Part shown: positions 3,026 to 34,558 of the stretch, piece after piece
How the letters are laid out: every line of letters starts with the position of its first letter
Position numbering within the stretch: position 1 is the stretch's first letter
Assembly (NCBI GenBank): GCA_902778265.1
Contig: CACYXI010000028.1
Span: 1 to 41,513, forward strand
DNA length: 41,513 nt
Origin: an uncultured Bacteroidales bacterium
GTDB lineage: Bacteria > Bacteroidota > Bacteroidia > Bacteroidales > Bacteroidaceae
Direction of reading: 5' to 3'
Notes under the pieces: generated by a model
The model's input: the letters and a program-made list of their open reading frames with translations, nothing else
What the model was told of the DNA's origin: nothing
The model's database searches: none
Position numbers and translations under genes: made by a program

Positions 3026-4165
3026 TTATTTCATTACGACCTTCTTACCATTAACTATATACATGCCTTTTGGCTGCATCTCAGTTACTTTATGTCCTTG
3101 CAGATCGTAAATGGCAGTTTTCTTTTCTGATAGTTCACGTTCGATAGACCTTAAACCAGTAGTCTGTTCCTTTGGCATAATCTGATCTGCATGATCCTTC
3201 CAGAATTCCGCATTACGATAAGTTTCAAGCGCGTTTTCAGGCACATAGATAGTGCAGAGGTAACCAAATGATTCTACACTATAAAGAGTTGCAGGAGTTT
3301 CTGATGTAAATTCTATTACTAAATCGTCGTCATACCATTGAGGAAACGCTTTATCACCTATTTCCGTTACATCTTTACCGATTTTTACGTATTCCAACAA
3401 AGTACCAAATAACGCATAATCACCAATGCTTGTTACGCCGTCTGAAATGTTTGCCTTTCCAAGGGGGCAAGCAGCGAAGGCCCTTCTTCCTATGCTTTTA
3501 ACGCTACTTGGAATTGTGATTTCAGTAATTTCCTTGCAAGCATTGAAGGCTCCTTCTTCTATGCTTTTAACGCTACTTGGAATTGTCAGCTCAGTAAAGC
3601 CACAACCTGCAAAAGCATGAGACTCGATACTTGTAATACCATTCGGGATGTTTACCTTTGCAAGCGAACTACACCCCCAAAAAGCTTCATCTGCGATGTA
3701 TTTAACACTGTTTGGCATTGTTACCTCAGTAAGTGCGTAACACTCTTTGAATGCTGCAAATTCAATGCATATAACACTATTTGGTATTGATACTTTTGTA
3801 AGTGCACAACAATCATGGAAGGATTCCCTACCGATATGGGTGACACCATCCTCAATAACTACAGATTTTATTTTTGTTATCTCAGAAATCCATGGCACTG
3901 AATTATGATGATATGCATCTTCCTTCCAATATCCGAATGAACTCATCGGACCGATTCCATAGATACGGAGAGTATAGTCATCATACAATTCATATTTCAC
4001 ACCTGATCCGCAATAGCCGGACTTAATGACATTCTTCTCCTTTTCAGCACCATTCCATGTCATCTCTACGTCAGATGACTGAAGCGCATCAATTCCATCT
4101 GCCTGTGCATAGCTCATAGAAGTTGCACAAAGCATAACTAATAATATTCCAAATAACTTCTTCAT
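3026..4165 (-). CDS. BspA-like leucine-rich-repeat surface protein (second of a pair)
   Basis: 379 residues. A signal peptide is clear (MKKLFGILLVMLCATSMSYA, cleavage near residue 20). About residues 95-275 hold LRR_5/BspA-type repeats with the phrases IPNSVxxIxxxAF and CxxLTxVxIP. The last 30 residues (AIYDLQGHKVTE...KGMYIVNGKKVV) match the short beta-rich tail common on Prevotella surface proteins and resembling type IX secretion sorting domains. Such proteins are exported and often bind host or diet polymers; the ligand here is unknown. The start lies 18 bases after the stop of its upstream paralogue, so they are co-transcribed. The two share near-identical segments such as IEDGVTxIG and the tail, which points to tandem duplication. 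Confidence 0.85.
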   Translation of the reverse strand: MKKLFGILLVMLCATSMSYAQADGIDALQSSDVEMTWNGAEKEKNVIKSGYCGSGVKYELYDDYTLRIYGIGPMSSFGYWKEDAYHHNSVPWISEITKIKSVVIEDGVTHIGRESFHDCCALTKVSIPNSVICIEFAAFKECYALTEVTMPNSVKYIADEAFWGCSSLAKVNIPNGITSIESHAFAGCGFTELTIPSSVKSIEEGAFNACKEITEITIPSSVKSIGRRAFAACPLGKANISDGVTSIGDYALFGTLLEYVKIGKDVTEIGDKAFPQWYDDDLVIEFTSETPATLYSVESFGYLCTIYVPENALETYRNAEFWKDHADQIMPKEQTTGLRSIERELSEKKTAIYDLQGHKVTEMQPKGMYIVNGKKVVMK

Positions 4166-4183
4166 TGCTGTGTTATTTTTTTA

Positions 4184-5302
4184 TTACTTATTCACCACCT
4201 TCTTTCCATTGACGATATAAATTCTATTAGGCAGCATCTCTGTCACCCTACGTCCTTGCAGGTCATAAACTGCATCCGCTTTCATTGCTGTCTGTCTATT
4301 ATCAACAGAACTGATGCCTGTAGTTTTATACCCATAAAATGAATCCTTATAACGCGTCCAATCTTCCGAACTGCGATAATAATCGAGCATTGTTTCTGGC
4401 ACACGAATAATGACGTTTTCAGGCTCAGCAAAAGCATTATTATTAACTGTACGGCCGTCACGTACGACACTGGCAAGTGTTACTGGAGTTTCAGAAGTAA
4501 ACTCAATGACAGTTTTGATGTTTGGATTGACATGATATAATAAGAAAAGACCTTCATTTATAGTAGTAACGCCCTTGCCAATCTTTGCGTATTTCACATT
4601 GTCACAACTACCGAATGCACACTCACCTATTGATGTAACAGCGTCAGGAATGATTATTTCTGTCAACGAAGTACAAGCGCAGAAGGCATATTCTCCTATG
4701 TTTGTAACACTATTCGGGATGTCTATATGTGTAAGTGAACTACAAAATGAGAAGGCTCTTTCTGCGATTGTCACAAGACCATCATGAATATTAAGTTCAG
4801 CAAGTGAAGTGCAATCATAAAAAGCAAAAGCTCCAATGCTTGTCACGCTGTTAGGAATGTTTATCTTTTTTAACGAAGTACAATCTTCGAAAGCATAGCT
4901 ACCTATGCTTGTAACACTGTTGGGAATGCTTACATCAGCAAGTGAATAACATCTCTCGAATGCACCAGCACCGATTCGGGTGACACCATCCTCAATAACT
5001 ATGGATTTTATTTTATGTTCCCATGATAGCCACGGCACATCGGCATACGTGTCACCATTAGAAACAAAAAAATTAAAATTGTACATTGCTCCCTTTCCGA
5101 AGATACGGAGAGTATAATCGTCATACAACTCGTAATTGACATTCTTTCCGCAAGAGCCGGAATCAATTACCTTTCCCATTGCCGCACCATCCGAAGCCAT
5201 CACAATGTCTGATGACTTATGTGTAGCAATTTCATCTGCCTGTGCATACATCATAGGAGTTACACAAAGCATTACAGTCAATACGCCAAATGTTTTTTTC
5301 AT
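4184..5302 (-). CDS. BspA-like leucine-rich-repeat surface protein (first of a pair)
   Basis: 372 residues from the MKK start at 5302. An in-frame ATG directly before it (5305) and a longer open frame to 5395 exist, but only the MKK start gives a normal signal peptide (MKKTFGVLTVMLCVTPMMYA). Seven or so LRR_5 repeats follow (IPNSVTSIGxxAF, CTSLTEIIIP). A C-terminal VYDLQGRRVTEML...YIVNGKKVV tail resembles a type IX secretion or surface-attachment domain. It heads a two-gene operon with the paralogue at 3026-4165. No TAnnTTTG box is evident just upstream. Confidence 0.85.
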   Translation of the reverse strand: MKKTFGVLTVMLCVTPMMYAQADEIATHKSSDIVMASDGAAMGKVIDSGSCGKNVNYELYDDYTLRIFGKGAMYNFNFFVSNGDTYADVPWLSWEHKIKSIVIEDGVTRIGAGAFERCYSLADVSIPNSVTSIGSYAFEDCTSLKKINIPNSVTSIGAFAFYDCTSLAELNIHDGLVTIAERAFSFCSSLTHIDIPNSVTNIGEYAFCACTSLTEIIIPDAVTSIGECAFGSCDNVKYAKIGKGVTTINEGLFLLYHVNPNIKTVIEFTSETPVTLASVVRDGRTVNNNAFAEPENVIIRVPETMLDYYRSSEDWTRYKDSFYGYKTTGISSVDNRQTAMKADAVYDLQGRRVTEMLPNRIYIVNGKKVVNK

Positions 5303-5660
5303 CATTACTATTGTTTTTATTAATATAATAATAAAAGGAATTATCAAAGACTTACAGAGCGGAAGACTATGTGCATACGACATTGAGCCTTGCAACCTAC
5401 AGATCTATGAAATCCAATAAATTATAAAATCGATCTTTATTCTTCAACATTTAAAATTCGCCATTTTTCTTTGTAAAGGATAGTAGCGAGTCTTCTTCGT
5501 CTATCTGTTGCATCCCTTTCCAACGAATGACAGGAAATGAACAATCAACAATCGTTTGCAAAAGTAGTAAATATTTTTATATCCTGCAAATTTTTACAAC
5601 AAAAATTCACCTAATTCATAAAAAAATGCAATTCACTTGCCATTCCTCCCTTTTTCATCC
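5303..5660. other. non-coding stretch upstream of the LRR operon
   Basis: AT-rich sequence between the LRR start and the palindrome at 5661. Short open frames here (for example on the plus strand across 5136-5420) are antisense shadows or lack coding character. No RNA gene or promoter match was recognised. Confidence 0.4.
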
Positions 5661-5726
5661 GAACCAAACTCGATGAAGGTTCGCTCTATGTCCGCTATTA
5701 TAGCGGAGGTTCATCGAGTTTGGTTC
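5661..5726. repeat. nested perfect palindrome (cruciform-type element)
   Basis: GAACCAAACTCGATGAA (5661-5677) is the exact inverse of 5710-5726, a 17-bp stem. Inside it, TCCGCTAT and ATAGCGGA (5691-5707) form a second 8-bp palindrome around one base. A GGAGTCATAACGGATTTACA tail (from about 5739) links it to the elements at 2300-2460 and 40956-41080. Confidence 0.75.
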
Positions 5727-5789
5727 CTTGGCAGAGCGGAGTCATAACGGATTTACAACGGACTTATCCTTTACTTTTCTATTGATTTC

Positions 5790-5821
5790 TTTGGTCGTGT
5801 AGGATTTTTTGTTTACTTTTG
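5790..5821 (+). promoter_or_regulatory. full Bacteroidetes promoter of the GNAT gene
   Basis: TTTG at 5790-5793, a 20-base spacer, and TACTTTTG at 5814-5821 match the TTTG-N19-21-TAnnTTTG consensus. The ATG follows 25 bases later at 5847. It is the best promoter match in the window. Confidence 0.7.
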
Positions 5822-5846
5822 CGCTCAAAAATAAGAAAACCCACTT

Positions 5847-6278
5847 ATGGAGATAATAAGAGCAACAAAGACGGCAGAACAAGCAGGAGCCTATTATGTT
5901 CGCATTCAGGCTATGGCACGGAAACATCAGATTCCTCTCAACGTGGAATTTGACGAGCATGACACGCCCGAGACAAAGTACATCGTTGTGATTGACAACT
6001 ACTTACCAATAGCCACTTGTCGTTTGTATGCAATAAACGAAGAACAAGTCATGCTTGGTCGTATTGTTGTTCTCCCTGAATATCGTCTTCAAGGACTTGG
6101 CACTCTCGTTGTCAAGGAAGCAGAGAAATGGGCAAAGGAACTTGGCTATCATACAGCCATAGTAGAGAGCCGAGATAACAAGATTCATTTCTATGAGACA
6201 ATGGGATATGTGGCAGACTTCTCACAGAAGATCATCGGAGAAACATTTACCTGTTATAGAATGGAAAAGGAATTGTAA
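5847..6278 (+). CDS. GNAT family N-acetyltransferase
   Basis: 143 residues, the size of a single GNAT fold. The acetyl-CoA motif A is visible as MLGRIVVLPEYRLQGLGTLV (about residues 68-87), with the Q/R-x-x-G-x-G pyrophosphate loop RLQGLG. Motif B follows as the IVESRDNKIHFYETMGY region (about 111-127), typical of the ElaA/YjcF-like branch. The acceptor substrate cannot be told from sequence. It has its own strong promoter and is followed 10 bases later by the DUF4419 gene, so the two are probably transcribed together although no functional link is known. Confidence 0.85.
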   Translation: MEIIRATKTAEQAGAYYVRIQAMARKHQIPLNVEFDEHDTPETKYIVVIDNYLPIATCRLYAINEEQVMLGRIVVLPEYRLQGLGTLVVKEAEKWAKELGYHTAIVESRDNKIHFYETMGYVADFSQKIIGETFTCYRMEKEL

Positions 6279-6288
6279 CGCATAAAAT

Positions 6289-7698
6289 ATGAAGAAAATA
6301 TTTTGTATTATATTTGCTATGCTTGGCATTTCTGGCTATATGATAGCTCAGAACACATCTAAAGTGGCTTCACACACCTTTGTGGTGGATGGCGAATTGC
6401 CTATTCCTACAGAGAAAAAGGAATTGGGAAATAGCGAGGAAATCGCAAAATACTGGGCTCAGAATGAACGCACCGGCCGTGTGATAGCAACAAGCTGGGG
6501 CAAGAAATCAATGCATCTGCCTAATCAATCAATATTCTTCAATTGTCTTGTGGAAGCATACGCAGGACATTATTCCGTAATACTATCACCTGACATAATC
6601 TGGACAGTAATAAGTCAAGGATTCTGTCATTATATAAGTACAAATTCAGAGAAATTAAGGGATAAAATAGTGAATCATGAGGGAAAAGCTACAATTTCCG
6701 TTGTATCTCAACATGACTTATATTCGCCTCATGTAGATTGGAACAATATCCTTGATGGCTTTGACAAGCAGATTGCAGATAACACCAAGGGAAATCTCTC
6801 AGATATGATGAGAGCAGATTTCAGCACCACAGGAACGACAGAACGCATAGCCTCTCAGGTAACGCTTATGAGTGCTGTGAAATCATACTTTAATTATAAG
6901 GCTGAACATTTCATTTGTGGCATTCCATCAATTACAATAGAAGGAACTCCAGATGATTGGAGAAAGATGATTGATAAAACAGAGAAACTAAGAAACTACG
7001 ACCTCGCTTGGTGGGTAGAAGACTTAACACCAATACTACAGGAGTTCGTCAAGGCAGCCGAGGGCAATGCCGATAAAAGTTTCTGGCAGAATATAGTAAA
7101 GAAAAACCGTCCAGAAAAATTGAAGAAAAGTGCTGGATGCGGTGTTAAAGACCCATCCAGATTTGACGGATGGTTCCTTAAACTTATGCCTTTTGACAAA
7201 GATGGACGAACCCCGGAAACGGTTGTGTATGGCAGAGATGACATGCTTACCAATGTTGTAAGTGCACCATTCACTTATGTGGTCAAAGATCACACAGGTA
7301 AAATAATCAGTCAAACTCCAATGGATATTGCAGCAGGATTGGTAGGTATTGAAATAGACGATAAAACCCATGCCATGCGTCCACAAATAGGTTGGATGGT
7401 ATCTGAGAGTAATCCTAATAGCTTTATTGAAAAAGCTTATGAATGCTATAATAGCGTTAAAACAATTAGAGTTAGTAGGATTCCCGAAGAACTCAAAAAG
7501 ATTGAGCATCTTGAAATGCTTTTCTTGGAATTTACTGGTGAGGTAGTAATACCAGAATGGATGGACAAACTCAATATTGATTATATAAAGATTAAAGGCA
7601 ATATCGCCCCAGAACTTGGAGAGGAGCTAAAAAGACGCTTTAAAGATCGAGAGGTAAAAGTTTATGAAACAAGTGTCACAATATCTGTGAAAGAATAG
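6289..7698 (+). CDS. secreted DUF4419 protein
   Basis: 469 residues. A signal peptide (MKKIFCIIFAMLGISGYMIA, cleavage before Q21) is followed by a domain I recognise as DUF4419. Characteristic pieces are LPNQSIFFNCLVEAYAGHYS, LSPDIIWTVISQGFCHYI and, later, WFLKLMPFDKDG. The family is found in bacteria and some fungi and has no assigned activity. Residues 380-450 add an acidic, leucine-rich tail that may be a separate small domain. Export to the periplasm or cell surface is expected. The terminator at 7731-7773 ends the transcript. Confidence 0.75.
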   Translation: MKKIFCIIFAMLGISGYMIAQNTSKVASHTFVVDGELPIPTEKKELGNSEEIAKYWAQNERTGRVIATSWGKKSMHLPNQSIFFNCLVEAYAGHYSVILSPDIIWTVISQGFCHYISTNSEKLRDKIVNHEGKATISVVSQHDLYSPHVDWNNILDGFDKQIADNTKGNLSDMMRADFSTTGTTERIASQVTLMSAVKSYFNYKAEHFICGIPSITIEGTPDDWRKMIDKTEKLRNYDLAWWVEDLTPILQEFVKAAEGNADKSFWQNIVKKNRPEKLKKSAGCGVKDPSRFDGWFLKLMPFDKDGRTPETVVYGRDDMLTNVVSAPFTYVVKDHTGKIISQTPMDIAAGLVGIEIDDKTHAMRPQIGWMVSESNPNSFIEKAYECYNSVKTIRVSRIPEELKKIEHLEMLFLEFTGEVVIPEWMDKLNIDYIKIKGNIAPELGEELKRRFKDREVKVYETSVTISVKE

Positions 7699-7730
7699 TT
7701 TCATAAACTCCATTCATAACTAAACACAAA

Positions 7731-7773
7731 AGAGGATAACGTATCATTTCGCTACATCATCCTCTCTTGTTTT
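7731..7773 (+). terminator. terminator after the DUF4419 gene
   Basis: AGAGGAT (7731-7737) pairs with ATCCTCT (7759-7765), followed by a T-rich run to 7773. It separates convergent genes. Confidence 0.6.
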
Positions 7774-7791
7774 TGAAAAGCATAATCTGCT

Positions 7792-9369
7792 TTAGATATT
7801 TGAATCTGTCTCGTCCTTCATATCTATAAATTGGCCTTCGCTATCGTAGAACTCATACTGAAGCATAGCGAGTTTCTGAGAAGGGATAACGCTAACACCA
7901 AGACCATATTTCATCTGCCACTTACGCTTGATGGAGATAATTCCCTTGGTGATATAAGCCTCAACATACGGATGAACGTAGAGGGTGAACTTATTGATTC
8001 CCACCTTGTTGACGAGGTTCGCAATCTTATTCTCAAGAATCTCCGTAAACAGCATACTTGACTTGATAGTGCCTGTTCCCTGACAGGTTGGGCAAACCTC
8101 CTCGACCGTGACATCCATAGCAGGACGGACACGCTGACGGGTAATCTGCATGAGTCCAAACTTAGACAGAGGCAGGATGTTATGACGAGCTCTATCCTTC
8201 TGCATATTCTTGCACATTCGCTCATAAAGCAACTGGCGATCCTCTGCAAGATTCATATCTATGAAATCAACGATAATGATACCGCCCATATCACGCAGAC
8301 GTAGCTGACGAGCAAGTTCGTCGGCAGCACCAAGATTCACGTCAAGTGCATTAGCCTCCTGACCGTTTACACCACGAGCACGATTACCGCTATTGACATC
8401 AACAACGTGCATAGCCTCTGTATGCTCAATGATGAGATACGCACCATGAGCATAGCTTACGGTCTTGCCAAAACCAGACTTCAACTGACGGGTGACGTTG
8501 AAATTATCGAAGATTGGCACCTTACCAGTATATTGCTTCACGATACCGACCTTCGTTGGCGCAATAAGAGATACATACTCACGCACCTCATTATACACCT
8601 CCTCATCGTTGACGTAGATATTCTCGTAAGTAGGGTTGAAGAGATCACGAAGCAAGGCAACGCTACGACTTGTCTCTTCATAGATAAGCATTGGTCGCTT
8701 AGTGGTTCGTTGCATCTTAGCAACAGCATCCGTCCAACGCTTGTAAAGCACCTTTATCTCGTTCTCCAGTTCCTCAACACGAAGACCTTCTGCAACGGTA
8801 CGCACGATAATGCCGCAATTCTTCGGACGAAGTGTCTGAACGAGCTGCTTGAGTCGTGCACGCTCCTCGGCACTCTTTATCTTTGACGATACGGCTACCT
8901 TTGAGCCAAAAGGCATAAGGACAAGATAACGACCGGCAAACGAGAGTTCGCCTGTGAGTCGTGGGCCTTTTGTAGAAATTGGTTCCTTGACAATCTGGAC
9001 AAGAACTTCCTGACCAACGGTAAGAGCCTGTGCAACAGAGCCTTCTTTCTCAAGATCGGGCATACGCTGCGCGTTCTCGAAAGGCATAAGATGCTGATGA
9101 TCGCTGTTTACCTGCTTGATGTACTTGGCATAGGAATTGAAGTTCTGTCCCATATCAAGATAGTGCAGAAAGGCATCCTTCTCGAAACCGACATCCACGA
9201 AGCAAGCATTAAGACCAGGCATAATCTTACGGACTTTAGCAACATAGACATTGCCGACACTAAATGATGCCGACCGAGGTTCGGTCTGATACTCAACCAG
9301 ATCCTTATCCTCCAATAGTGCAATACTGATCTCTTTCTCCTTTACGTCAATTATTACCTCGCTTGTCAT
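7792..9369 (-). CDS. rng: ribonuclease E/G family endoribonuclease
   Basis: 525 residues, the length of RNase G-type enzymes without the long RNase E tail. An S1 RNA-binding region (VGNVYVAKVRKIMPGLNACFVDVGF, about residues 38-62) carries an insertion of about 50 residues. Catalytic acidic residues lie in VVDVNSGNRA (near 324) and IIIVDFIDM. The CPTCQGTG sequence near residue 425 is the zinc-link CPxCxGxG that bridges protomers. The enzyme cleaves single-stranded RNA in rRNA maturation and mRNA decay. ATG at 9369 gives MTSEVIIDVKEKEISIALLED, a normal family start. It lies downstream of HU in the same direction, but a terminator-like hairpin (9424-9478) separates them. Confidence 0.94.
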   Translation of the reverse strand: MTSEVIIDVKEKEISIALLEDKDLVEYQTEPRSASFSVGNVYVAKVRKIMPGLNACFVDVGFEKDAFLHYLDMGQNFNSYAKYIKQVNSDHQHLMPFENAQRMPDLEKEGSVAQALTVGQEVLVQIVKEPISTKGPRLTGELSFAGRYLVLMPFGSKVAVSSKIKSAEERARLKQLVQTLRPKNCGIIVRTVAEGLRVEELENEIKVLYKRWTDAVAKMQRTTKRPMLIYEETSRSVALLRDLFNPTYENIYVNDEEVYNEVREYVSLIAPTKVGIVKQYTGKVPIFDNFNVTRQLKSGFGKTVSYAHGAYLIIEHTEAMHVVDVNSGNRARGVNGQEANALDVNLGAADELARQLRLRDMGGIIIVDFIDMNLAEDRQLLYERMCKNMQKDRARHNILPLSKFGLMQITRQRVRPAMDVTVEEVCPTCQGTGTIKSSMLFTEILENKIANLVNKVGINKFTLYVHPYVEAYITKGIISIKRKWQMKYGLGVSVIPSQKLAMLQYEFYDSEGQFIDMKDETDSNI

Positions 9370-9423
9370 TTTTGAAAATTGAGAATTGAAAATTTACAAG
9401 ACACATTATAGCACTCTCTACAC

Positions 9424-9478
9424 AAAAAAAATGGAAATTAGGGTGTGCACAGCATAGTCAATATGGTGGCACACCCTA
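9424..9478 (-). terminator. terminator downstream of HU and the basic peptide
   Basis: TAGGGTGTGC (9439-9448) and GCACACCCTA (9469-9478) form a perfect 10-bp stem. On the minus strand it runs into a T7 stretch at 9424-9430. It would end or attenuate transcription from HU before rng. Confidence 0.75.
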
Positions 9479-9518
9479 TTCTGCCTGATAACAGAACGCT
9501 ACAGGCACACGTCAGAGC

Positions 9519-9602
9519 TTACTTGCTCTTATGACGATTCTTGCGCAGTCTCTTCTTACGCTTGTGAGTAGCATATAACTTTAAACTTCTGTTTCTCAGC
9601 AA
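9519..9602 (-). CDS. possible tiny, very basic peptide behind HU
   Basis: A 27-codon frame without an ATG; a TTG at 9602 is the likely start. It translates to MLRNRSLKLYATHKRKKRLR followed by KNRHKSK. More than half of the residues are K, R or H. It begins 5 bases after the HU stop and ends 40 bases before the terminator, so it could be translationally coupled to HU. The composition looks like a small ribosome- or nucleic-acid-binding protein, and I have the impression that a similar THKRKKRLRKNRHK peptide occurs in related genomes, but I cannot verify this. The non-ATG start and small size keep confidence low. Confidence 0.4.
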   Translation of the reverse strand: MLRNRSLKLYATHKRKKRLRKNRHKSK

Positions 9603-9607
9603 AAGAA

Positions 9608-9904
9608 TTAATCCTCTGCTGTAACTTCCTCACCCTTCATGCGCTGTACGAAGCTCTTAGCAGGCTTGAAGCCTGGGAAGTCGTGCGGAGCAATAAGAAG
9701 AGTTGTTTTCTGAGAAATATTTCGAGCAGTCTTTTCTGCACGATGCTTTACCTGGAATGTGCCGAAACCACGGAGATAAACGTTTTCCTTGTTACACATA
9801 GAATCCTTGACGCACTCCATGAAAGACTCGATAACAGCAGCTACGTCTCTCTTCTGGAGACCAGTGTTGTTAGTGATTTCGTTGATGATATCTGCCTTTG
9901 TCAT
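9608..9904 (-). CDS. HU/IHF family DNA-binding protein
   Basis: 98 residues from MTKADIINEI at 9904. A longer open frame to 9967 would run through the promoter box and is rejected. The fold signature is complete: an N-terminal helix pair (ADIINEITNNTGLQKRDVAAVIESF), then VYLRGFGTFQVKHRAEKTARN (about residues 42-62), the DNA-contact arm, and the FKPAKSF end. These proteins bend DNA as dimers and organise the nucleoid. A short acidic tail (GEEVTAED) is present. The -7 box at 9943-9950 drives it, and the basic peptide follows directly. Confidence 0.95.
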   Translation of the reverse strand: MTKADIINEITNNTGLQKRDVAAVIESFMECVKDSMCNKENVYLRGFGTFQVKHRAEKTARNISQKTTLLIAPHDFPGFKPAKSFVQRMKGEEVTAED

Positions 9905-9942
9905 TTTATTGATTAAATTATGATATTTCGAAAATTGCGATG

Positions 9943-9950
9943 CAAAGTTA
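9943..9950 (-). promoter_or_regulatory. -7 box of the HU promoter
   Basis: The minus strand reads TAACTTTG, matching TAnnTTTG, 38 bases before the HU ATG. Confidence 0.6.
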
Positions 9951-10045
9951 CAACATTTTCTTGTCATACGGAAATTTTTTAAGCATTTTTTTATCTAAAT
10001 ATCTAAAATGTGGGTAGTTGAGTGTAGAAAATTGGATATTTATAC

Positions 10046-10074
10046 TTGTTTCTGAAACTTTTTTAGTAATTTTG
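10046..10074 (+). promoter_or_regulatory. promoter of the his operon segment
   Basis: TTG at 10046-10048, an 18-base spacer and TAATTTTG at 10067-10074. The hisH ATG follows 41 bases later. No leader peptide rich in histidine codons was seen. Confidence 0.55.
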
Positions 10075-10115
10075 CACCTTAATTAAATAGTAAATGCAAG
10101 ATAACAAGCGAATTA

Positions 10116-10712
10116 ATGAAAGTTTCAATAGTAAAATACAACGCCGGTAACATTTTCTCGGTCATCAATTCGGTTAAAAGACTCGGTATTGAGCCTCTTT
10201 GGACGGATGATCCACAGGAGATTGCAACATCTGACCGCGTGATATTCCCTGGTCAGGGACATGCAAGGACAGCAATGGACTATCTGCGCGAACACAACCT
10301 CGACAAGGTTATTGCAGACCTTAAGCAACCTGTTCTCGGCATCTGCATCGGACAGCAGCTTCTTTGTCAGCACTCAGAGGAGGGCGATACTGACTGCATA
10401 GGAATCTTCCCAATCAACGTGCGCCGCTTCCAGCCAACCTGCCATGAGCAGAAAGTTCCAGCAATGGGTTGGAATGCAATACACGACCTGAAATCACCAC
10501 TCTTCAAGGGACTGAATGAGAACGACTACGTTTATTTCGTTCACTCCTACTATTGCGAGATGTGTGACTATACGGCGGCAACATCCGATTACATTCTCCC
10601 CTACTCTGCATCATTACATAAGGATAACTTCTACGCAATGCAGTTCCACCCAGAGAAGAGCGGAAAGGTAGGACACAAGATTCTGGAGAACTTCATTAAT
10701 CTAAATGTATAA
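10116..10712 (+). CDS. hisH: imidazole glycerol phosphate synthase glutamine amidotransferase subunit
   Basis: 198 residues. HisH hydrolyses glutamine and channels ammonia to HisF in histidine synthesis. The class I amidotransferase triad is visible: C77 in GICIGQQLL, and H178 and E180 in FHPEKSG. The oxyanion-side sequence FPGQGHARTAM lies at about 44-54. Length is normal. It is the first gene of hisH-hisA-hisF-hisI-hisE under the promoter at 10046-10074. A GC-rich inverted repeat begins at its stop codon. Confidence 0.97.
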   Translation: MKVSIVKYNAGNIFSVINSVKRLGIEPLWTDDPQEIATSDRVIFPGQGHARTAMDYLREHNLDKVIADLKQPVLGICIGQQLLCQHSEEGDTDCIGIFPINVRRFQPTCHEQKVPAMGWNAIHDLKSPLFKGLNENDYVYFVHSYYCEMCDYTAATSDYILPYSASLHKDNFYAMQFHPEKSGKVGHKILENFINLNV

Positions 10713-29210: not shown

Positions 29211-29269
29211 AATAGGGAAATCCCTACACTTTTTTATGGATAACTTGTCATAATGTCAAGGAAATTATG

Positions 29270-29277
29270 TAACTTTG
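29270..29277 (+). promoter_or_regulatory. -7 box of the DUF3857-like gene promoter
   Basis: TAACTTTG, with a TTG 22 bases upstream (29245-29247). The ATG follows at 29319. Confidence 0.5.
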
Positions 29278-29318
29278 TACGCAAAATTAAAGTTCCTACC
29301 CCTAAAATAACAAAAACG

Positions 29319-30290
29319 ATGAAAAAACTATTTGGAAAATTATGCCTGTCGCTGGCATTTTTTGCCTACGGAAACGTTTCCATGGCACAGCTACCTAACG
29401 AGAAATTCGGCAAACCATCAACCCTCGAAATGGACTATAAAGGATGGGGCGATGCAGTTGATGCTGACGCAATCGTTTTGTGCAAAACAATGAAAGTGTC
29501 TTACGAGCTTAGTGACCAGTTTGGCTCTATGACCGAAAGTGTTACGGAGCTTAACATGGAGAACATGCAGTTTCTTGGCAACAACAGGATTGACGAGAGC
29601 GGAATATTGGTGAACTACGAGGTGAAGCTCCGCACTAAGATTATGAAGCCAGAGGGTGCAAAACATGCCAATATCGACATAACATATTATGATGGAAATG
29701 AAGAGCACCACAACAGTTCGTTTGATGAACTGATTGACCTCAAGGTCAATGTATTCACCAAGAACGAGAAAGGAAAGATCGAGAAGAAAAAGATCAACAC
29801 TAATGACTTCACCAAGGAGCGCCTTAACGACCACTACATGGTGATACACGTTAAAGTACCTGATGTTCAAGCTGGTAGCATAGTGGAGTATCAATATAAG
29901 ATAACGAGCCCACGAGCATCATTCATCTACGACTGGGCTTTCCAAGATCAGATACCTGTGGTGCGCTCAAAATGCGACATCGAGATTCCTGCTTTCTTGA
30001 AGTTCAACATGAATGCCCCTATCAACAAGCTCATCAAGTCGAATGTGGAGGCTGGTATGATTACCTACGACAAGAACAGGGCAGACATGAAGGCAGCAAA
30101 GCGTTGTCGCACCAACCACTACACCATTCTTGGCGACTACATATTGCCAGAAGGTCAGGCTCTAACGCATAATCAAGGCAGCGAAAATAGTGGCAAGGCC
30201 GAGAAGATTGCGAACTTCACAAGCAAGATTATGGAGCACGATCAGCCTGTGTATATGCCAGACGGCACAACGCATCTGAAGATTCAATAG
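29319..30290 (+). CDS. secreted DUF3857-like protein
   Basis: 323 residues from MKKLFGKLC at 29319 (the upstream in-frame codons lie in the promoter). A signal peptide (to about residue 23, SMA/QL) is followed by a beta-rich domain. VPDVQAGSIVEYQYKITSPR and SFIYDWAFQDQIPVVRSKCDIEIP are typical of the DUF3857 domain that often precedes a transglutaminase domain. The transglutaminase part is absent: the protein ends at residue 323, so it is a short relative or a stand-alone version. It is probably a periplasmic or surface beta-sandwich. The function is unknown. Confidence 0.65.
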   Translation: MKKLFGKLCLSLAFFAYGNVSMAQLPNEKFGKPSTLEMDYKGWGDAVDADAIVLCKTMKVSYELSDQFGSMTESVTELNMENMQFLGNNRIDESGILVNYEVKLRTKIMKPEGAKHANIDITYYDGNEEHHNSSFDELIDLKVNVFTKNEKGKIEKKKINTNDFTKERLNDHYMVIHVKVPDVQAGSIVEYQYKITSPRASFIYDWAFQDQIPVVRSKCDIEIPAFLKFNMNAPINKLIKSNVEAGMITYDKNRADMKAAKRCRTNHYTILGDYILPEGQALTHNQGSENSGKAEKIANFTSKIMEHDQPVYMPDGTTHLKIQ

Positions 30291-30704: not shown

Positions 30705-31334
30705 TCACCTTATTATGTACTCAAAACGATCAAAGTTGGTGTAGCCAAGCGTTTCGAGAAACGCTTGACTACTATCCCTATCGTCATCGGTGTTATAGTC
30801 GGGAATATGAGGAAGTCGAATCAAGATGCAGGGGAGGAGGTCGGTATGTTCAGAAGCAATCCATCGAAGATTATCAATGACGCGCTCGTTACTGATGCCC
30901 GAATATGACTTATAGATTTCGGGATTCATATCCTTAATGTCGATAATCCATTCCTTGACGAACGGAAGCACATCCTCCACATTCTTGCGTGGCACGTTGA
31001 GACTTGACTCTATGGATATTCGCCATTCCTTTGGGCATTGCTCGCAGAATGCCTTGATAAACGCGCTGCTAAGCAGCGGCTCACCACCGCCGAATGTTAC
31101 ACCTCCGCCTGTGGCAAGGAAATAGAGCTGGTCAATACGCACCTCGTCAATAAGTTCCTCTACCGTGCGCTCTATGCACGGCGTATCTTTCGAGAGACTA
31201 TGCGGATTGAGACAATACTTACAGCGCAACGGACATCCGTGGAATGCCACGAGTGTGGTAACGCCCTCACCATCAATCGCCAAACGATGACGGGAAATGC
31301 CAATCATTCTGCCTATGAGTTCTGATTTTGCCAT
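30705..31334 (-). CDS. radical SAM activating enzyme (PflA/glycyl-radical activase-like)
   Basis: 209 residues. The [4Fe-4S] motif is FHGCPLRCKYC (C-x3-C-x2-C, about residues 33-40). It is followed by GGGVTFGGGEPLL (SAM-binding GGE motif, about 76-88) and WIIDIKDMNPEIYKSYSG, a classic activase segment. There is no inserted ferredoxin domain, as in the short PflA type. Such enzymes make a glycyl radical on a partner enzyme, but no glycyl-radical enzyme gene is in the window. It is the last gene of a tight operon with three cysteine-headed TonB-like proteins (6 bases from the preceding stop), an unexpected context. Confidence 0.85.
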   Translation of the reverse strand: MAKSELIGRMIGISRHRLAIDGEGVTTLVAFHGCPLRCKYCLNPHSLSKDTPCIERTVEELIDEVRIDQLYFLATGGGVTFGGGEPLLSSAFIKAFCEQCPKEWRISIESSLNVPRKNVEDVLPFVKEWIIDIKDMNPEIYKSYSGISNERVIDNLRWIASEHTDLLPCILIRLPHIPDYNTDDDRDSSQAFLETLGYTNFDRFEYIIR

Positions 31335-31340
31335 AATTTT

Positions 31341-32216
31341 TTAATTACGAAAACACATAGTCATTGGTATTGTATATTTCACTTTTACAGGCTTGCCGCT
31401 ATGCTTGCCCGGATTCCATTTCGGCATAGCCTCTATGACACGAACAAATTCAGCATCATACAACGGATGGACAGATTTTACAACCTTGATATCAGAGATT
31501 GAGCCATCTTCATTTATAACCATAGTACACACAATCCGCCCTTGAATGCCCAATTCCTCAACCTCTTTAGGATATTTGAAGTTTTTTTGTATAAATGCCA
31601 TCAATGCAGCCGTTCCACCAGAGTATGAAGGCATTTCTTCTACATATTCATAGACACCATTTTCTAATTCTTTTGATCCTATTTTTACTCCTTTTATTAC
31701 CCAAGGACTATCCACCTCATTAGGATTATCAAATCCAATCTCACCTTCTTTTGTGAGACATTCATCCTCTACATCCCTTTTAATAACGGGAGCAGTCCCT
31801 CTAACAGTCTTATGTACAGGCTCTTTTATAGCAACAGAATCGAAATATTCAACATCACCTGTCAATTGCCCATCGCCAACTACTCTACGTACAACCTTTG
31901 CCTCACGACGACACCTGGATTGTCCTTCACCTAAAGTTGTCTTTTCGGCTTTATCTTGTGATGAAGAAGCGAAATCACAGCTACTCAGCGTAAACATTCC
32001 AACAGACACACCTGCCAAAACTACAGCCTTACCAAGCAACTGACGTTGATACAACTGCTGTTCGAGATAGCGAACCTCAGCCTCGCACTTTGGGCAAGTG
32101 CCGAGACAATCCCCCCTGTACTGACATTCCTCAACGACATACTCTATATCGTTCGCCTCCGCTATCTGACGGCGAATCTCCTTGAGAATTTTGCAGGTTT
32201 TCTTTCCTTTTGCCAT
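31341..32216 (-). CDS. TonB C-terminal-domain protein with a cysteine-rich head (third paralogue)
   Basis: 291 residues. Residues 1-55 are a charged head (MAKGKKTCKILKEIRRQIAE...) with four clustered cysteines C31, C37, C41, C44 (C-x5-C-x3-C-x2-C, in CQYRGDCLGTCPKC). A hydrophobic stretch follows (about 60-79, KAVVLAGVSVGMFTLSSC), ending in a lipobox-like LSSC. A variable, charged linker leads to a TonB_C domain (about 200-291: FKYPKEVEELGIQGRIVCTM, INEDGSISDIKVVKS, MPKWNPGKHSGKPVKVKY). TonB transmits proton-motive energy to outer-membrane receptors. It starts 2 bases after the second paralogue's stop. Confidence 0.85.
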   Translation of the reverse strand: MAKGKKTCKILKEIRRQIAEANDIEYVVEECQYRGDCLGTCPKCEAEVRYLEQQLYQRQLLGKAVVLAGVSVGMFTLSSCDFASSSQDKAEKTTLGEGQSRCRREAKVVRRVVGDGQLTGDVEYFDSVAIKEPVHKTVRGTAPVIKRDVEDECLTKEGEIGFDNPNEVDSPWVIKGVKIGSKELENGVYEYVEEMPSYSGGTAALMAFIQKNFKYPKEVEELGIQGRIVCTMVINEDGSISDIKVVKSVHPLYDAEFVRVIEAMPKWNPGKHSGKPVKVKYTIPMTMCFRN

Positions 32217-32218
32217 AG

Positions 32219-33052
32219 CTATTGAAGATTTATACTTATAGGCAATTTATATTTCACTTTTACAGGCTTGCCATTATGCTTGCCTGGATTCCATTTCGGC
32301 ATAGACTCCATTACACGAATACTCTCAGCATCAAACAATGGATGAACAGGTTTTATGACCTTGACATCAGAAATCGAACCATCCTCATTTATAACAAGAG
32401 TACACATAATCCGACTTTGAATGCCCAACTCTTCAACCTCTTTAGGATATTTGAAGTTCTTATTTACAAATGTCAACAAAGCAGACATTCCACCAGGGTA
32501 TGTTGGCATTTCTTCTACAGAATCATAGACACCATTCTCATCTTGCCTATAATTATTGCAGCTATCATTTTCAGCTTCGACTACGTTTTCTTTCTTAGAA
32601 AGATTTGACTTCTTAGGAGTTTCTGGAAGCACCTCAACATCTCCTTTTATAACGGGTGGAGTAAATTTCACACGACTTTTCCCTCCTACGTAAGAATCTT
32701 CAGAATCAACCATACCAGTAGTAGAATTGTAGGGGGTACGCTCTACTTTGGCTTCTTTTTTTATCTCCTTAAGGGCTGCAAGCTCAATTTCCCGAGTCTT
32801 ATCCTTGGAATCACAACTACTCAGCGTGAACATTCCTACTGATACCCCAGCCAAAACGACAGCCTTGCCAAGCAACTGGCGTTGGTGCAACTGCTGTTCT
32901 AGATAGCGAACCTCAGCCTCGCACTTTGGGCAAGTGCCAAGACAATCGCCTTTGTACTGACATTCCTCAACAACATACTCTATGTCGTTCGCCTCCGCTA
33001 TCTGACGGCGAATCTCCTTGAGGATCTTGCAGGTTTTCTTTCCTTTTGCCAT
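32219..33052 (-). CDS. TonB C-terminal-domain protein with a cysteine-rich head (second paralogue)
   Basis: 277 residues with the same plan as its neighbours. The head is almost identical to theirs in residues 1-78, including C8, C31, C37, C41 and C44. The membrane stretch ends in TLSSCDSKD. The middle (about 85-175) is unlike the others. The TonB_C domain runs from NFKYPKEVEELGIQSRIMCT to the end. The sharp contrast between conserved head and free linker suggests recent duplication or gene conversion of the 5' part. Start ATG at 33052 is unambiguous. Confidence 0.85.
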   Translation of the reverse strand: MAKGKKTCKILKEIRRQIAEANDIEYVVEECQYKGDCLGTCPKCEAEVRYLEQQLHQRQLLGKAVVLAGVSVGMFTLSSCDSKDKTREIELAALKEIKKEAKVERTPYNSTTGMVDSEDSYVGGKSRVKFTPPVIKGDVEVLPETPKKSNLSKKENVVEAENDSCNNYRQDENGVYDSVEEMPTYPGGMSALLTFVNKNFKYPKEVEELGIQSRIMCTLVINEDGSISDVKVIKPVHPLFDAESIRVMESMPKWNPGKHNGKPVKVKYKLPISINLQ

Positions 33053-33082
33053 AGTAAAATAAAAATTTAAAGTGCTAACCTA

Positions 33083-33829
33083 TTACATTTGGCTCTTAAA
33101 CTTTCGATCAATGTATCTCTTATGAAAATAAAGAAAAACAAAGACTGCAAAAATAGTATATTGCGTTATGAAATAAATATTGTCTTTTAGTTTGCAATAA
33201 TCCCTATCCAAAAATGGTGAAATCTGACGAATACCACGTTGTGACAAAACGACCATATACTTATCAAACATAATTTTATCCATAATTTCATGTAAGAAAT
33301 AGCCATCACCATATCCATATAATACATTACTAGGAGATAGTTTCGCTGCATTGTTGTATTTATCATATACCTCATCATATGATCCATCTGAGGATTTTGA
33401 AACCGAATCTTTATACAACTTATAAGACTTGCCAATACAAGCCTTAATTTCCTCGTCTGATAATATAGGACTCTTTGCATAAATTCTTAATGGATAGGTA
33501 GTGCCACTGGCATACCATCCTTTACTACTGTAAATATGAGAATATGTCCATGGGCTTCCAACTAACTCATATTTGTAAGGATATTCTGGTTTATCATCAC
33601 TTTTTCCCTTATATTCCACCCTATAATTCGTCTTACGAACCTTGACAGTATCTCCCATCGCTATCAAGCTATCCACCATTGATGTAAATTTAGTATAGCA
33701 ACCCGCAGGGATAACATGATTGGGATTATTTTCCAACTCTTGCTGATAGTATCTTTCAAGAGCACTAAAGAATAACGGCTCTATACAAAGCACAAACAAA
33801 CATATAAAAATGATATTTATACGAGTCAT
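33083..33829 (-). CDS. two-TM protein of unknown function in the TonB operon
   Basis: 248 residues, not recognised. An N-terminal helix (about 4-22, INIIFICLFVLCIEPLFFS) and a C-terminal helix (about 217-237, YFITQYTIFAVFVFLYFHKR) flank a tyrosine-rich, probably periplasmic domain of about 190 residues. There is one cysteine in that domain (AGCYTKF) and one near the C-terminal helix (DYCKLKD). It sits 5 bases after the first TonB-like gene and 30 before the second, so it is co-transcribed. Its topology would suit a partner of the TonB-like proteins, which is inference. Confidence 0.7.
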   Translation of the reverse strand: MTRINIIFICLFVLCIEPLFFSALERYYQQELENNPNHVIPAGCYTKFTSMVDSLIAMGDTVKVRKTNYRVEYKGKSDDKPEYPYKYELVGSPWTYSHIYSSKGWYASGTTYPLRIYAKSPILSDEEIKACIGKSYKLYKDSVSKSSDGSYDEVYDKYNNAAKLSPSNVLYGYGDGYFLHEIMDKIMFDKYMVVLSQRGIRQISPFLDRDYCKLKDNIYFITQYTIFAVFVFLYFHKRYIDRKFKSQM

Positions 33830-33834
33830 CGAGA

Positions 33835-34500
33835 TTATTTTTTAACATTTATACTATCATTTTGATTATCCTCTAAGCGGAAAGTTATTGGAAAAATGTA
33901 ACTCACACTCTTAGGCTCACCATTTTGTTTTACAGGAATCCACTTGGGCATGAGAGATAAAACACGGACAGCTTCTGCATCAAGCAAGGGATGAACAGAC
34001 TTTACAACAGTAATATCAGAAATTGAACCATCCTTTCCAACAACAAAGCGACATACCACTCTTCCTTGCACACATTCACATTCCGCTTGTTCTGGATAAT
34101 TAACATTCTCTTTTAGAAACTTCATCAAAGCAGAAATTCCTCCAGGAAAGGAAGGCATAGGCTCAATAATTTGTCCGACAATATCAAAAACTGGTTCTTT
34201 ACCTCCTCGTATTACCTCCGCTTCTTCAGAAGTGTTAATCTGGTCGTACATCTCATTTCCACATGAACTAAGGCTAAGCAAACCTGCAGAAATGCCTGCC
34301 ACCATTACTGCCTTGCCAAGCAACTGACGTTGGTGCAACTGCTGTTCAAGATAGCGAACCTCAGCCTCACACTTTGGGCAAGTACCAAGACAATCGCCCT
34401 TATACTGACATTCCTCAACGACATACTCTATATCGTTCGCCTCCGCTATCTGACGGCGAATCTCCTTGAGGATCTTACAGGTTTTCTTTCCTTTTGCCAT
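33835..34500 (-). CDS. TonB C-terminal-domain protein with a cysteine-rich head (first paralogue)
   Basis: 221 residues from ATG at 34500; an upstream in-frame ATG at 34530 falls in the promoter region and lacks the MAKGKK start shared by the paralogues. The head with C8, C31, C37, C41 and C44 is followed by a hydrophobic segment ending in SLSSCGNE. The linker is shorter than in the others. The TonB_C domain (about 135-221) reads FPGGISALMKFLKENVNYPE, VQGRVVCRFVVGKDGSISDI, MPKWIPVKQNGEPKSVSY. It is the first gene of the five-gene operon. Confidence 0.85.
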   Translation of the reverse strand: MAKGKKTCKILKEIRRQIAEANDIEYVVEECQYKGDCLGTCPKCEAEVRYLEQQLHQRQLLGKAVMVAGISAGLLSLSSCGNEMYDQINTSEEAEVIRGGKEPVFDIVGQIIEPMPSFPGGISALMKFLKENVNYPEQAECECVQGRVVCRFVVGKDGSISDITVVKSVHPLLDAEAVRVLSLMPKWIPVKQNGEPKSVSYIFPITFRLEDNQNDSINVKK

Positions 34501-34527
34501 AATGAAATGTTTTTGAATTAACGTTTG

Positions 34528-34558
34528 CAAAGGTAATGATATTATTTATGACCGCCAA
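34528..34558 (-). promoter_or_regulatory. promoter of the TonB/radical-SAM operon
   Basis: On the minus strand TTG (34556-34558) and TACCTTTG (34528-34535) are separated by 20 bases, a good match to the Bacteroidetes consensus. The first ATG follows 27 bases on. Confidence 0.65.

Follow-up and report, generated by a model that had tools for sequence, protein, structure and literature searches.

The window analysed here is the whole 41,513-nucleotide stretch of an uncultured Bacteroidales bacterium (GenBank assembly GCA_902778265.1, contig CACYXI010000028.1, positions 1 to 41,513). Its minus strand carries five genes in a row, which encode three proteins that share a cysteine-rich N-terminal domain (referred to here as the head), a protein with two transmembrane-type segments and a radical-SAM enzyme. 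In transcription order the genes are separated by spacers of 5, 30, 2 and 6 bases, in agreement with the five-gene operon (spacings of 2, 5, 6 and 30 bases) described in a first-pass annotation made from the sequence. Pfam identifies a TonB_C domain in all three head proteins and a Radical_SAM domain in the product of the last gene. The three heads differ at two positions within residues 1–65 and at seven within residues 66–80, such that the near-identity first assigned to residues 1–78 holds largely and is slightly generous at its C-terminal end. The features of the head proteins and the enzyme are as follows.

30705..31334, minus strand: radical-SAM enzyme of the glycyl-radical-enzyme-activase type by sequence, 209 residues (Pfam Radical_SAM and family profiles)
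31221-31235, minus strand: CPLRC of the radical-SAM cluster motif
31080-31094, minus strand: FGGGE of the radical-SAM enzyme
30927-30941, minus strand: DIKDM of the radical-SAM enzyme
31341..32216, minus strand: head protein 1, 291 residues, with cysteine-rich head, signal-like segment with LSSC, linker and TonB_C (Pfam)
32037..32216, minus strand: cysteine-rich head of protein 1, residues 1–60 (C8, C31, C37, C41 and C44)
31977..31988, minus strand: lipobox-like LSSC of protein 1, residues 77–80
32219..33052, minus strand: head protein 2, 277 residues, with head, signal-like segment, linker and TonB_C (Pfam)
32813..32824, minus strand: lipobox-like LSSC of protein 2
33835..34500, minus strand: head protein 3, 221 residues from the ATG, with head, signal-like segment, short linker and TonB_C (Pfam)
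34261..34272, minus strand: lipobox-like LSSC of protein 3

The head and the radical-SAM enzyme are firmly paired. Among 393 genomes sampled from the order, a head profile matched 15 and the window enzyme matched 18; the enzyme matches of at least 184 bits (15 of the 18) fell in exactly the 15 head genomes, and the remaining three scored 93–105 bits. In a set of 60 relatives, the head (searched with a single query) and the enzyme were again found in the same 15. The two sets combine to 428 distinct genomes, of which 29 contain both, none contains one alone and 399 contain neither at the thresholds used (Fisher 1e-45, uncorrected for kinship). The 35 same-genus relatives divide into 14 with both and 21 with neither (4e-10). 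In each of the 29 positive genomes the enzyme search matched once and the head search one to four times. Enzyme and head are on one contig in 27 of them, where they are fused (three genomes), adjacent or within about 1.5 kb of each other, and lie on separate contigs in the other two. In line with the first-pass annotation, the co-occurrence in all 29 genomes shows that the radical-SAM gene is a conserved partner and not a chance neighbour.

A scan of genome contigs yielded at least 476 confirmed relatives, and the 80 nearest to the query were kept as head loci; the gene caller recovered the head itself in 77 of these. The kept relatives belong to Prevotella, Bacteroides, Muribaculaceae and other Bacteroidales, and a sample of the phylum contained the head in 2 of 296 genomes, both from the family of the window. 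An enzyme homologue is found in 54 of the 80 head loci, at a median distance of −4 bases from the head gene. No other neighbour cluster occurs in more than 11 of the 80, and the head and the enzyme form the only commonly conserved neighbourhood among these loci. Segatella copri HDE06 carries one unit, with two head proteins and the enzyme, on a plasmid of 93 kb (NZ_CP137558.1, 2118-4606), where the annotation reads ‘energy transducer TonB’ for the head proteins and ‘radical SAM protein’ for the enzyme. The plasmid unit adjoins relaxase and mobC genes; the replicon is typed as non-mobilizable in PLSDB. Since the whole unit is on a plasmid beside mobilisation genes, it can travel on a mobile replicon.

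For the analysis of conservation, 172 loci were reduced to 145 distinct complete proteins, then to 123 at 80% identity and finally to 119 proteins longer than 100 residues; head reading frames cut by the end of a locus were excluded from the conservation counts. The four proteins dropped in the last step, all under 100 residues and without a hydrophobic segment, are the head parts of three enzyme fusions and the free head of one locus (L158), both described below. The cysteines C31, C37, C41 and C44 noted at first are conserved in the relatives, as is C8, which had been overlooked together with the LSSC at residues 77–80. Each of the five is retained in 142 to 145 of the 145 distinct proteins, so that loss of the cysteines in most homologous heads, which had been named as grounds for abandoning the functional link, is not observed. 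Residues G4, G35 and G39 are also nearly invariant, and the invariant columns listed for the 119-protein alignment all fall within the head and the signal segment. No Pfam or NCBIfam family matched the head near its cut-off, and the four matches to PDB entries (best E-value 0.22) were rejected. Homology to SPASM domains was considered and rejected: although the C-x5-C-x-G-x-C spacing is shared, comparison with the three SPASM segments that passed the pattern, from 16 loci, gave an hhalign probability of 11% over 15 columns, and no Pfam SPASM match (PF13186) was found in the window proteins. A zinc anti-sigma factor (ZAS), which is encoded adjacent to its sigma factor gene, was likewise rejected, as no sigma factor gene is adjacent in the 80 loci; a cluster recognised by eye as ECF-sigma-like occurs in 11 of them at a median of 3.8 kb from the head.

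In six of nine genomes of one family in the order, the head is located at the C-terminus of the enzyme and has no hydrophobic segment. All six fusion genes are followed by a gene for a peptide of 61–92 residues that starts with MLI[DNK]D and contains glycine motifs such as ALVGDI. Since the presumed substrate has no head where the enzyme carries one, the fusion gives the best hint that the head serves in docking or as a cofactor and is not itself modified. Pfam finds only Radical_SAM and Fer4_12 in the window and fusion enzymes. An AlphaFold2 model of the fusion, built on an alignment of 30 rows, has a mean pLDDT of 74.7 and a pTM of 0.62. The head part (residues 221–280; pLDDT block means 74–93) is predicted to contain two helices (219–238 and 259–273) flanking the cysteine loop, and enzyme residues 1–110 are poorly modelled (pLDDT 46–69). 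The unit is flanked in all six fusion genomes by a gene that appears by eye to be dnaA-like on one side and a large TonB-dependent-receptor-like gene on the other; a check for the plug domain of the latter covered one of these genomes.

The hydrophobic segment that follows the head in the 119 proteins ends with a lipobox pattern in 84, with [AST]Q in 28 and with neither in seven, of which at least four are AxA-like; an uncharged run of 17–20 residues is present in 85. A looser first classification of the 123 proteins had assigned 80 to lipobox and 39 to AxA, with four lacking the segment; the discrepancy arises from lipoboxes containing Asn or Pro, which the looser scheme did not count. Since a lipobox or [AST]Q closes the hydrophobic stretch behind the head in 112 of the 119 proteins, the head is probably removed at export along with the signal segment, and would thus not persist as the cytoplasmic sensor of the mature protein that was originally envisaged. 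In known cases such as ESPR and YSIRK, signal peptides carry extended regions, and the head could similarly slow or target export, with the radical-SAM link being secondary. Its position ahead of both signal peptidase I (SPI)- and signal peptidase II (SPII)-type segments on unrelated exported proteins suits such a role; however, the exact co-occurrence with one enzyme and the enzyme fusion that lacks a signal segment do not, which makes this explanation very improbable.

The Pfam domains attached to the 119 heads are TonB_C in 73 and CarbopepD_reg_2 in 27; the remainder contain neither or match weak families, and some are very short. A fourth head in the same genome, on another contig, has a hydrophobic segment ending in VIPAMAQE and no TonB signature. 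Because it is also carried by carboxypeptidase-regulatory-like proteins and by very short exported peptides, the head is not a part of TonB, and the proposed coupling of the head to TonB action finds no footing. A TonB_C domain, as expected for an energy transducer, is present in the three window proteins and the 73 relatives. Nonetheless, in 52 of 64 TonB-type head proteins the hydrophobic stretch terminates in the lipobox pattern, which argues, as a pattern-based count, against the uncleaved anchor of a membrane-spanning TonB; these proteins are thus more likely to be lipoproteins. TonB itself reaches ExbB–ExbD across the membrane, which a TonB_C domain held by a lipid anchor could not do. 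The initial proposal of a membrane-anchored cytoplasmic zinc or Fe–S sensor, coupling redox state to TonB action, accommodates the conserved cysteines and the frequency of TonB_C. It does not account for the heads with other domains or none, for the lipobox and [AST]Q ends and the uncharged runs of 17–20 residues, for fused and free heads without a hydrophobic segment, or for the reach of a lipid-anchored domain, and is quite improbable.

The exported parts of the head proteins share a glycine motif. The pattern [LIVMF]xG[DE][VILMP], first seen by eye, is present in 82 of 119 exported parts, compared to a mean of 16 and a maximum of 26 in 200 shuffles. An expectation-maximisation search with no prior pattern was run on 82 linkers of at least 14 residues, with the 37 long head proteins lacking a TonB signature excluded from training. 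The resulting motif, [LIV]-x-G-[DE]-[VI], has a log-likelihood of 318, against 90–97 in six shuffled sets. In a two-fold held-out test, 57 of the 82 linkers reached p ≤ 0.05, compared to four of 38 neighbouring headless lipoproteins; 18 of the 37 untrained proteins also passed, as did five of the six fusion-family peptides, none of which was in training, and 75 of the 119 exported parts passed overall. The start of the TonB_C domain differs correspondingly between head proteins and a headless control (22 TonB_C windows; 30 loci, ten of the same genomes): it is mostly VFDVVEQMP-like without a head and often VFGDVVEQMP with one. The string [VILF][FLYV]G occurs just before TonB_C in 28 of 64 proteins with a head and in none of the 22 without; the corresponding counts for a looser G motif are 40 of 64 and two of 22 (p 1e-5). 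A short head precursor of 127 residues contains both LQGDV and LEGDV. The motifs of the window proteins are listed below.

31851..31865, minus strand: glycine motif LTGDV in the exported part of head protein 1, candidate target
32636..32650, minus strand: glycine motif IKGDV of head protein 2, candidate target
34168..34182, minus strand: glycine motif IVGQI of head protein 3, directly N-terminal of TonB_C, with position 4 off-consensus

Three TonB-type head proteins have a second string in common, RGTAPVIK or close to it, in their exported parts: one in the window (31779-31802), one on the S. copri plasmid and one in a further locus.

By sequence, the enzyme is a relative of glycyl-radical-enzyme activases, as had been recognised from the start. 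All 33 aligned enzymes match TIGR02494, with the best E-value among the matches listed. The window enzyme is below the curated cut-offs of both activase families, with 135.8 bits for TIGR02494 (cut-off 174.35) and 98.9 bits for TIGR02493 (cut-off 231.75). C34, C38 and C41 of the CxxxCxxC motif and G82-G83-G84-E85 of the GGE segment are invariant in the 33 enzymes. Among solved structures, the closest in sequence is that of pyruvate formate-lyase (PFL)-activating enzyme (E-value 7e-25; PDB codes 3c8f and 8fo0), to which the DG-G, cluster, GGE and D-x-K segments align. Two of the three low-scoring homologues in the order sample (105 and 97 bits) were inspected; each has a long downstream gene, recognised by eye as a glycyl-radical enzyme. 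Beside the head-linked enzymes this position is occupied by head genes, and no adjacent cognate glycyl-radical-enzyme gene was encountered in the 80 loci, where the head is the only common neighbour. The kinship to PFL-activating enzyme, the aligned DG-G and D-x-K segments and the glycine at the motif centre would also suit a true glycyl-radical system, in which a radical stored in the motif serves anaerobic chemistry or oxygen-triggered chain cleavage. Yet no glycyl-radical-enzyme family is among the Pfam matches of the 119 head proteins, the radical would have to survive export, and the motif is unlike RVSGY, the motif of glycyl-radical enzymes. Such a system is improbable.

The explanation we favour, with moderate confidence, is that these genes encode one modification system: the head would dock the precursor, and the activase-like enzyme would modify its glycine motif prior to export. 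What computation shows directly is the pairing of head and enzyme, their fusion, the position of the head before a signal-like segment, and the presence of the glycine motif. From N- to C-terminus, the translation product would comprise the head, then the signal segment, then the part to be exported. In the cytoplasm the head, which may be a metal-binding helix-loop-helix, would dock the precursor onto its enzyme, by analogy with the leader of a ribosomally synthesized and post-translationally modified peptide (RiPP), a role suggested by the fusion and the co-occurrence. The enzyme would act on one or more [LIV]-x-G-[DE]-[VI] motifs in the part to be exported, the motif being the candidate target because it is conserved. 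After Sec export, signal peptidase II or I would remove the head and the signal segment together, as the lipobox and SPI-type ends suggest. The released product would be a modified lipoprotein or periplasmic protein with a TonB_C or carboxypeptidase-regulatory-like domain, or a short peptide. PFL-activating enzyme abstracts a glycine α-hydrogen, and by analogy the same abstraction would be the simplest first step here. A serious alternative for the modification is epimerisation of the neighbouring Val or Ile, a reaction performed by the radical-SAM enzymes of epipeptides, as summarised in a review (PMC8326336).

Several observations weigh against such a system. The examined stretch contains no enzyme in 26 of the 80 head loci, some of which end at a contig edge. 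In the held-out test, 25 of the 82 linkers, 19 of the 37 long non-TonB head proteins and one fusion-family peptide (p 0.16) fail, and 11 of the 82 linkers have no motif even in loose form. The motif statistics are inflated by kinship, since 60 of the 82 linkers belong to a single similarity cluster; when each cluster is represented by a single linker, the motif remains in about 10 of 20, against 0.5 in shuffles. The motif string also occurs by chance in unrelated neighbouring proteins. Locus L158 has a free 88-residue head without a signal segment beside the enzyme, and no clear substrate was seen there; the two are part of an operon (3816-10195) with DUF1848, Sel1/LRR and DUF3800 proteins. 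Finally, the invariant cysteines are located in the head and not in the motif, and the head itself could therefore be the substrate. The head would then be either substrate or obligate cofactor domain (through its Gly-Cys segment, for example), with the exported domains as mere changing passengers. Such a role is consistent with the near invariance of the five cysteines and G4, G35 and G39, with the restriction of the listed invariant columns to the head and signal segment, with the six enzyme fusions and with the separate signal-less head of L158. It gives no role, however, to the glycine motif in the exported parts and in the headless peptides beside the fusions, and we regard it as unlikely. 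The L158 operon adjoins genes that by eye resemble mobilisation genes.

More tentatively, and with fairly low probability, a glycyl-radical activase may here have come to act on a family of exported proteins in place of its usual enzyme. The head, carried by the substrate in front of its own signal peptide, would in that case serve as the SPASM-like metal-cluster domain that the activase needs, supplied in trans and discarded at export, and glycine α-carbons of envelope proteins would be modified before secretion.

Two further features of the five-gene row lie outside the head–enzyme pair or upstream of it.

33083..33829, minus strand: 248-residue protein of two-transmembrane type, hydrophobic at both ends, not conserved and probably outside the system
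34528-34535, minus strand: TACCTTTG ahead of the first ATG, possibly the −7 element of the operon promoter (Bacteroidota consensus match)

The two-transmembrane protein, initially listed as a partner, was rejected as such: phmmer found no match to it across the 80 head loci, and the 60 relatives contain the window's own copy and two weak partial matches (E-values 0.001 and 0.004). The Bacteroidota −7 promoter element has the consensus TAnnTTTG. A single promoter for the operon is plausible because TACCTTTG fits this element; a sigma-70 promoter scan gave no excess (12 found, 12.6 expected). Beyond the enzyme gene, a 345-residue open reading frame (29253-30290) resembles by eye the N-terminal half of a 662-residue protein, and is possibly shortened; the cluster of the full-length form is present in six of the 80 head loci. 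In four other loci (about 4.2–12.8 kb; several Bacteroides), the enzyme–head pair is found between two large genes, which we take to resemble an AddA/AddB-type helicase–nuclease pair. A typical Bacteroidales head and enzyme are also present in a record titled as a Paenibacillus metagenome-assembled genome, a title that is probably wrong.

The system resembles several described ones and lies outside any named family. With the glycyl-radical-enzyme activases of TIGR02494 and TIGR02493 the enzyme shares, by sequence, its family and active-site segments; it differs in its scores below the curated cut-offs, its length of about 205 residues and its partner, a head protein instead of a glycyl-radical enzyme. 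Haft and Basu reportedly described in 2011 a radical-SAM enzyme of SPASM type beside a Bacteroidales lipoprotein (TIGR04133/TIGR04134), a pairing similar except for the enzyme type. Neither family is among all 19 matched by the window enzyme (E-value 0.001), nor among the matches listed for the enzyme sets (25 of 40 and 25 of 43). Like radical-SAM RiPP systems, the maturase gene is found beside precursor genes (54 of 80 loci; on one contig in 27 of the 29 genomes), and a conserved leader, the near-invariant head, precedes a variable exported part with a recurrent motif in most. In contrast to RiPP maturases, the enzyme here amounts to a short core of activase type with only Radical_SAM and Fer4_12 in Pfam, the precursors include envelope proteins of 200–360 residues, and the leader is a cysteine-rich domain ahead of a signal segment. 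The radical-SAM maturases covered in the review comprise sactisynthases, epimerases and ranthipeptide enzymes (PMC8326336), and the fusion of head to enzyme parallels the RRE recognition elements described for RiPP maturases.

The DAG-RiPPs, RiPP–lipoprotein hybrids of Bacteroidota, are presented in a 2025 preprint by Chen et al. (PMC12636315) as minimal systems of a precursor and one modifying enzyme. As outlined there, the precursor has an SPII or SPI signal, the cytoplasmic enzyme acts before lipidation, and some substrates are whole proteins. The present system agrees in its occurrence in Bacteroidota, its precursor and single enzyme, its signal-bearing precursors, its proposed cytoplasmic modification and proposed whole-protein substrates; the lipobox is found by pattern in 84 of 119. 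The DAG-RiPP enzyme is an MNIO, whereas the enzyme here is a radical-SAM protein, and recognition in DAG-RiPPs is attributed in the preprint to a C-terminal motif and expected by its authors to be leader-independent, in contrast to the conserved domain before the signal segment here. The open-licence literature yielded no description recognisable as the head or the head–enzyme pairing, and the main text of a survey of RiPPs across 1,136 Bacteroidales genomes (PMC10352776) contains neither ‘TonB’ nor ‘lipoprotein’; a further paper, PMC8939145, has no bearing on the system.

If the favoured explanation is correct, the head and its enzyme would represent an undescribed route by which surface and periplasmic proteins of gut and rumen Bacteroidales are modified before they leave the cell, and would be an instance in which a recognition domain precedes a signal peptide. 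An activase-like radical enzyme would thereby have a role without a glycyl-radical-enzyme gene beside it, and the annotation ‘energy transducer TonB’, seen twice, would be explained for proteins that are probably not energy transducers. Should the activase instead have swapped its partner as suggested above, the chemistry would be a general modification of Bacteroidales envelope proteins and not the biosynthesis of a single natural product.

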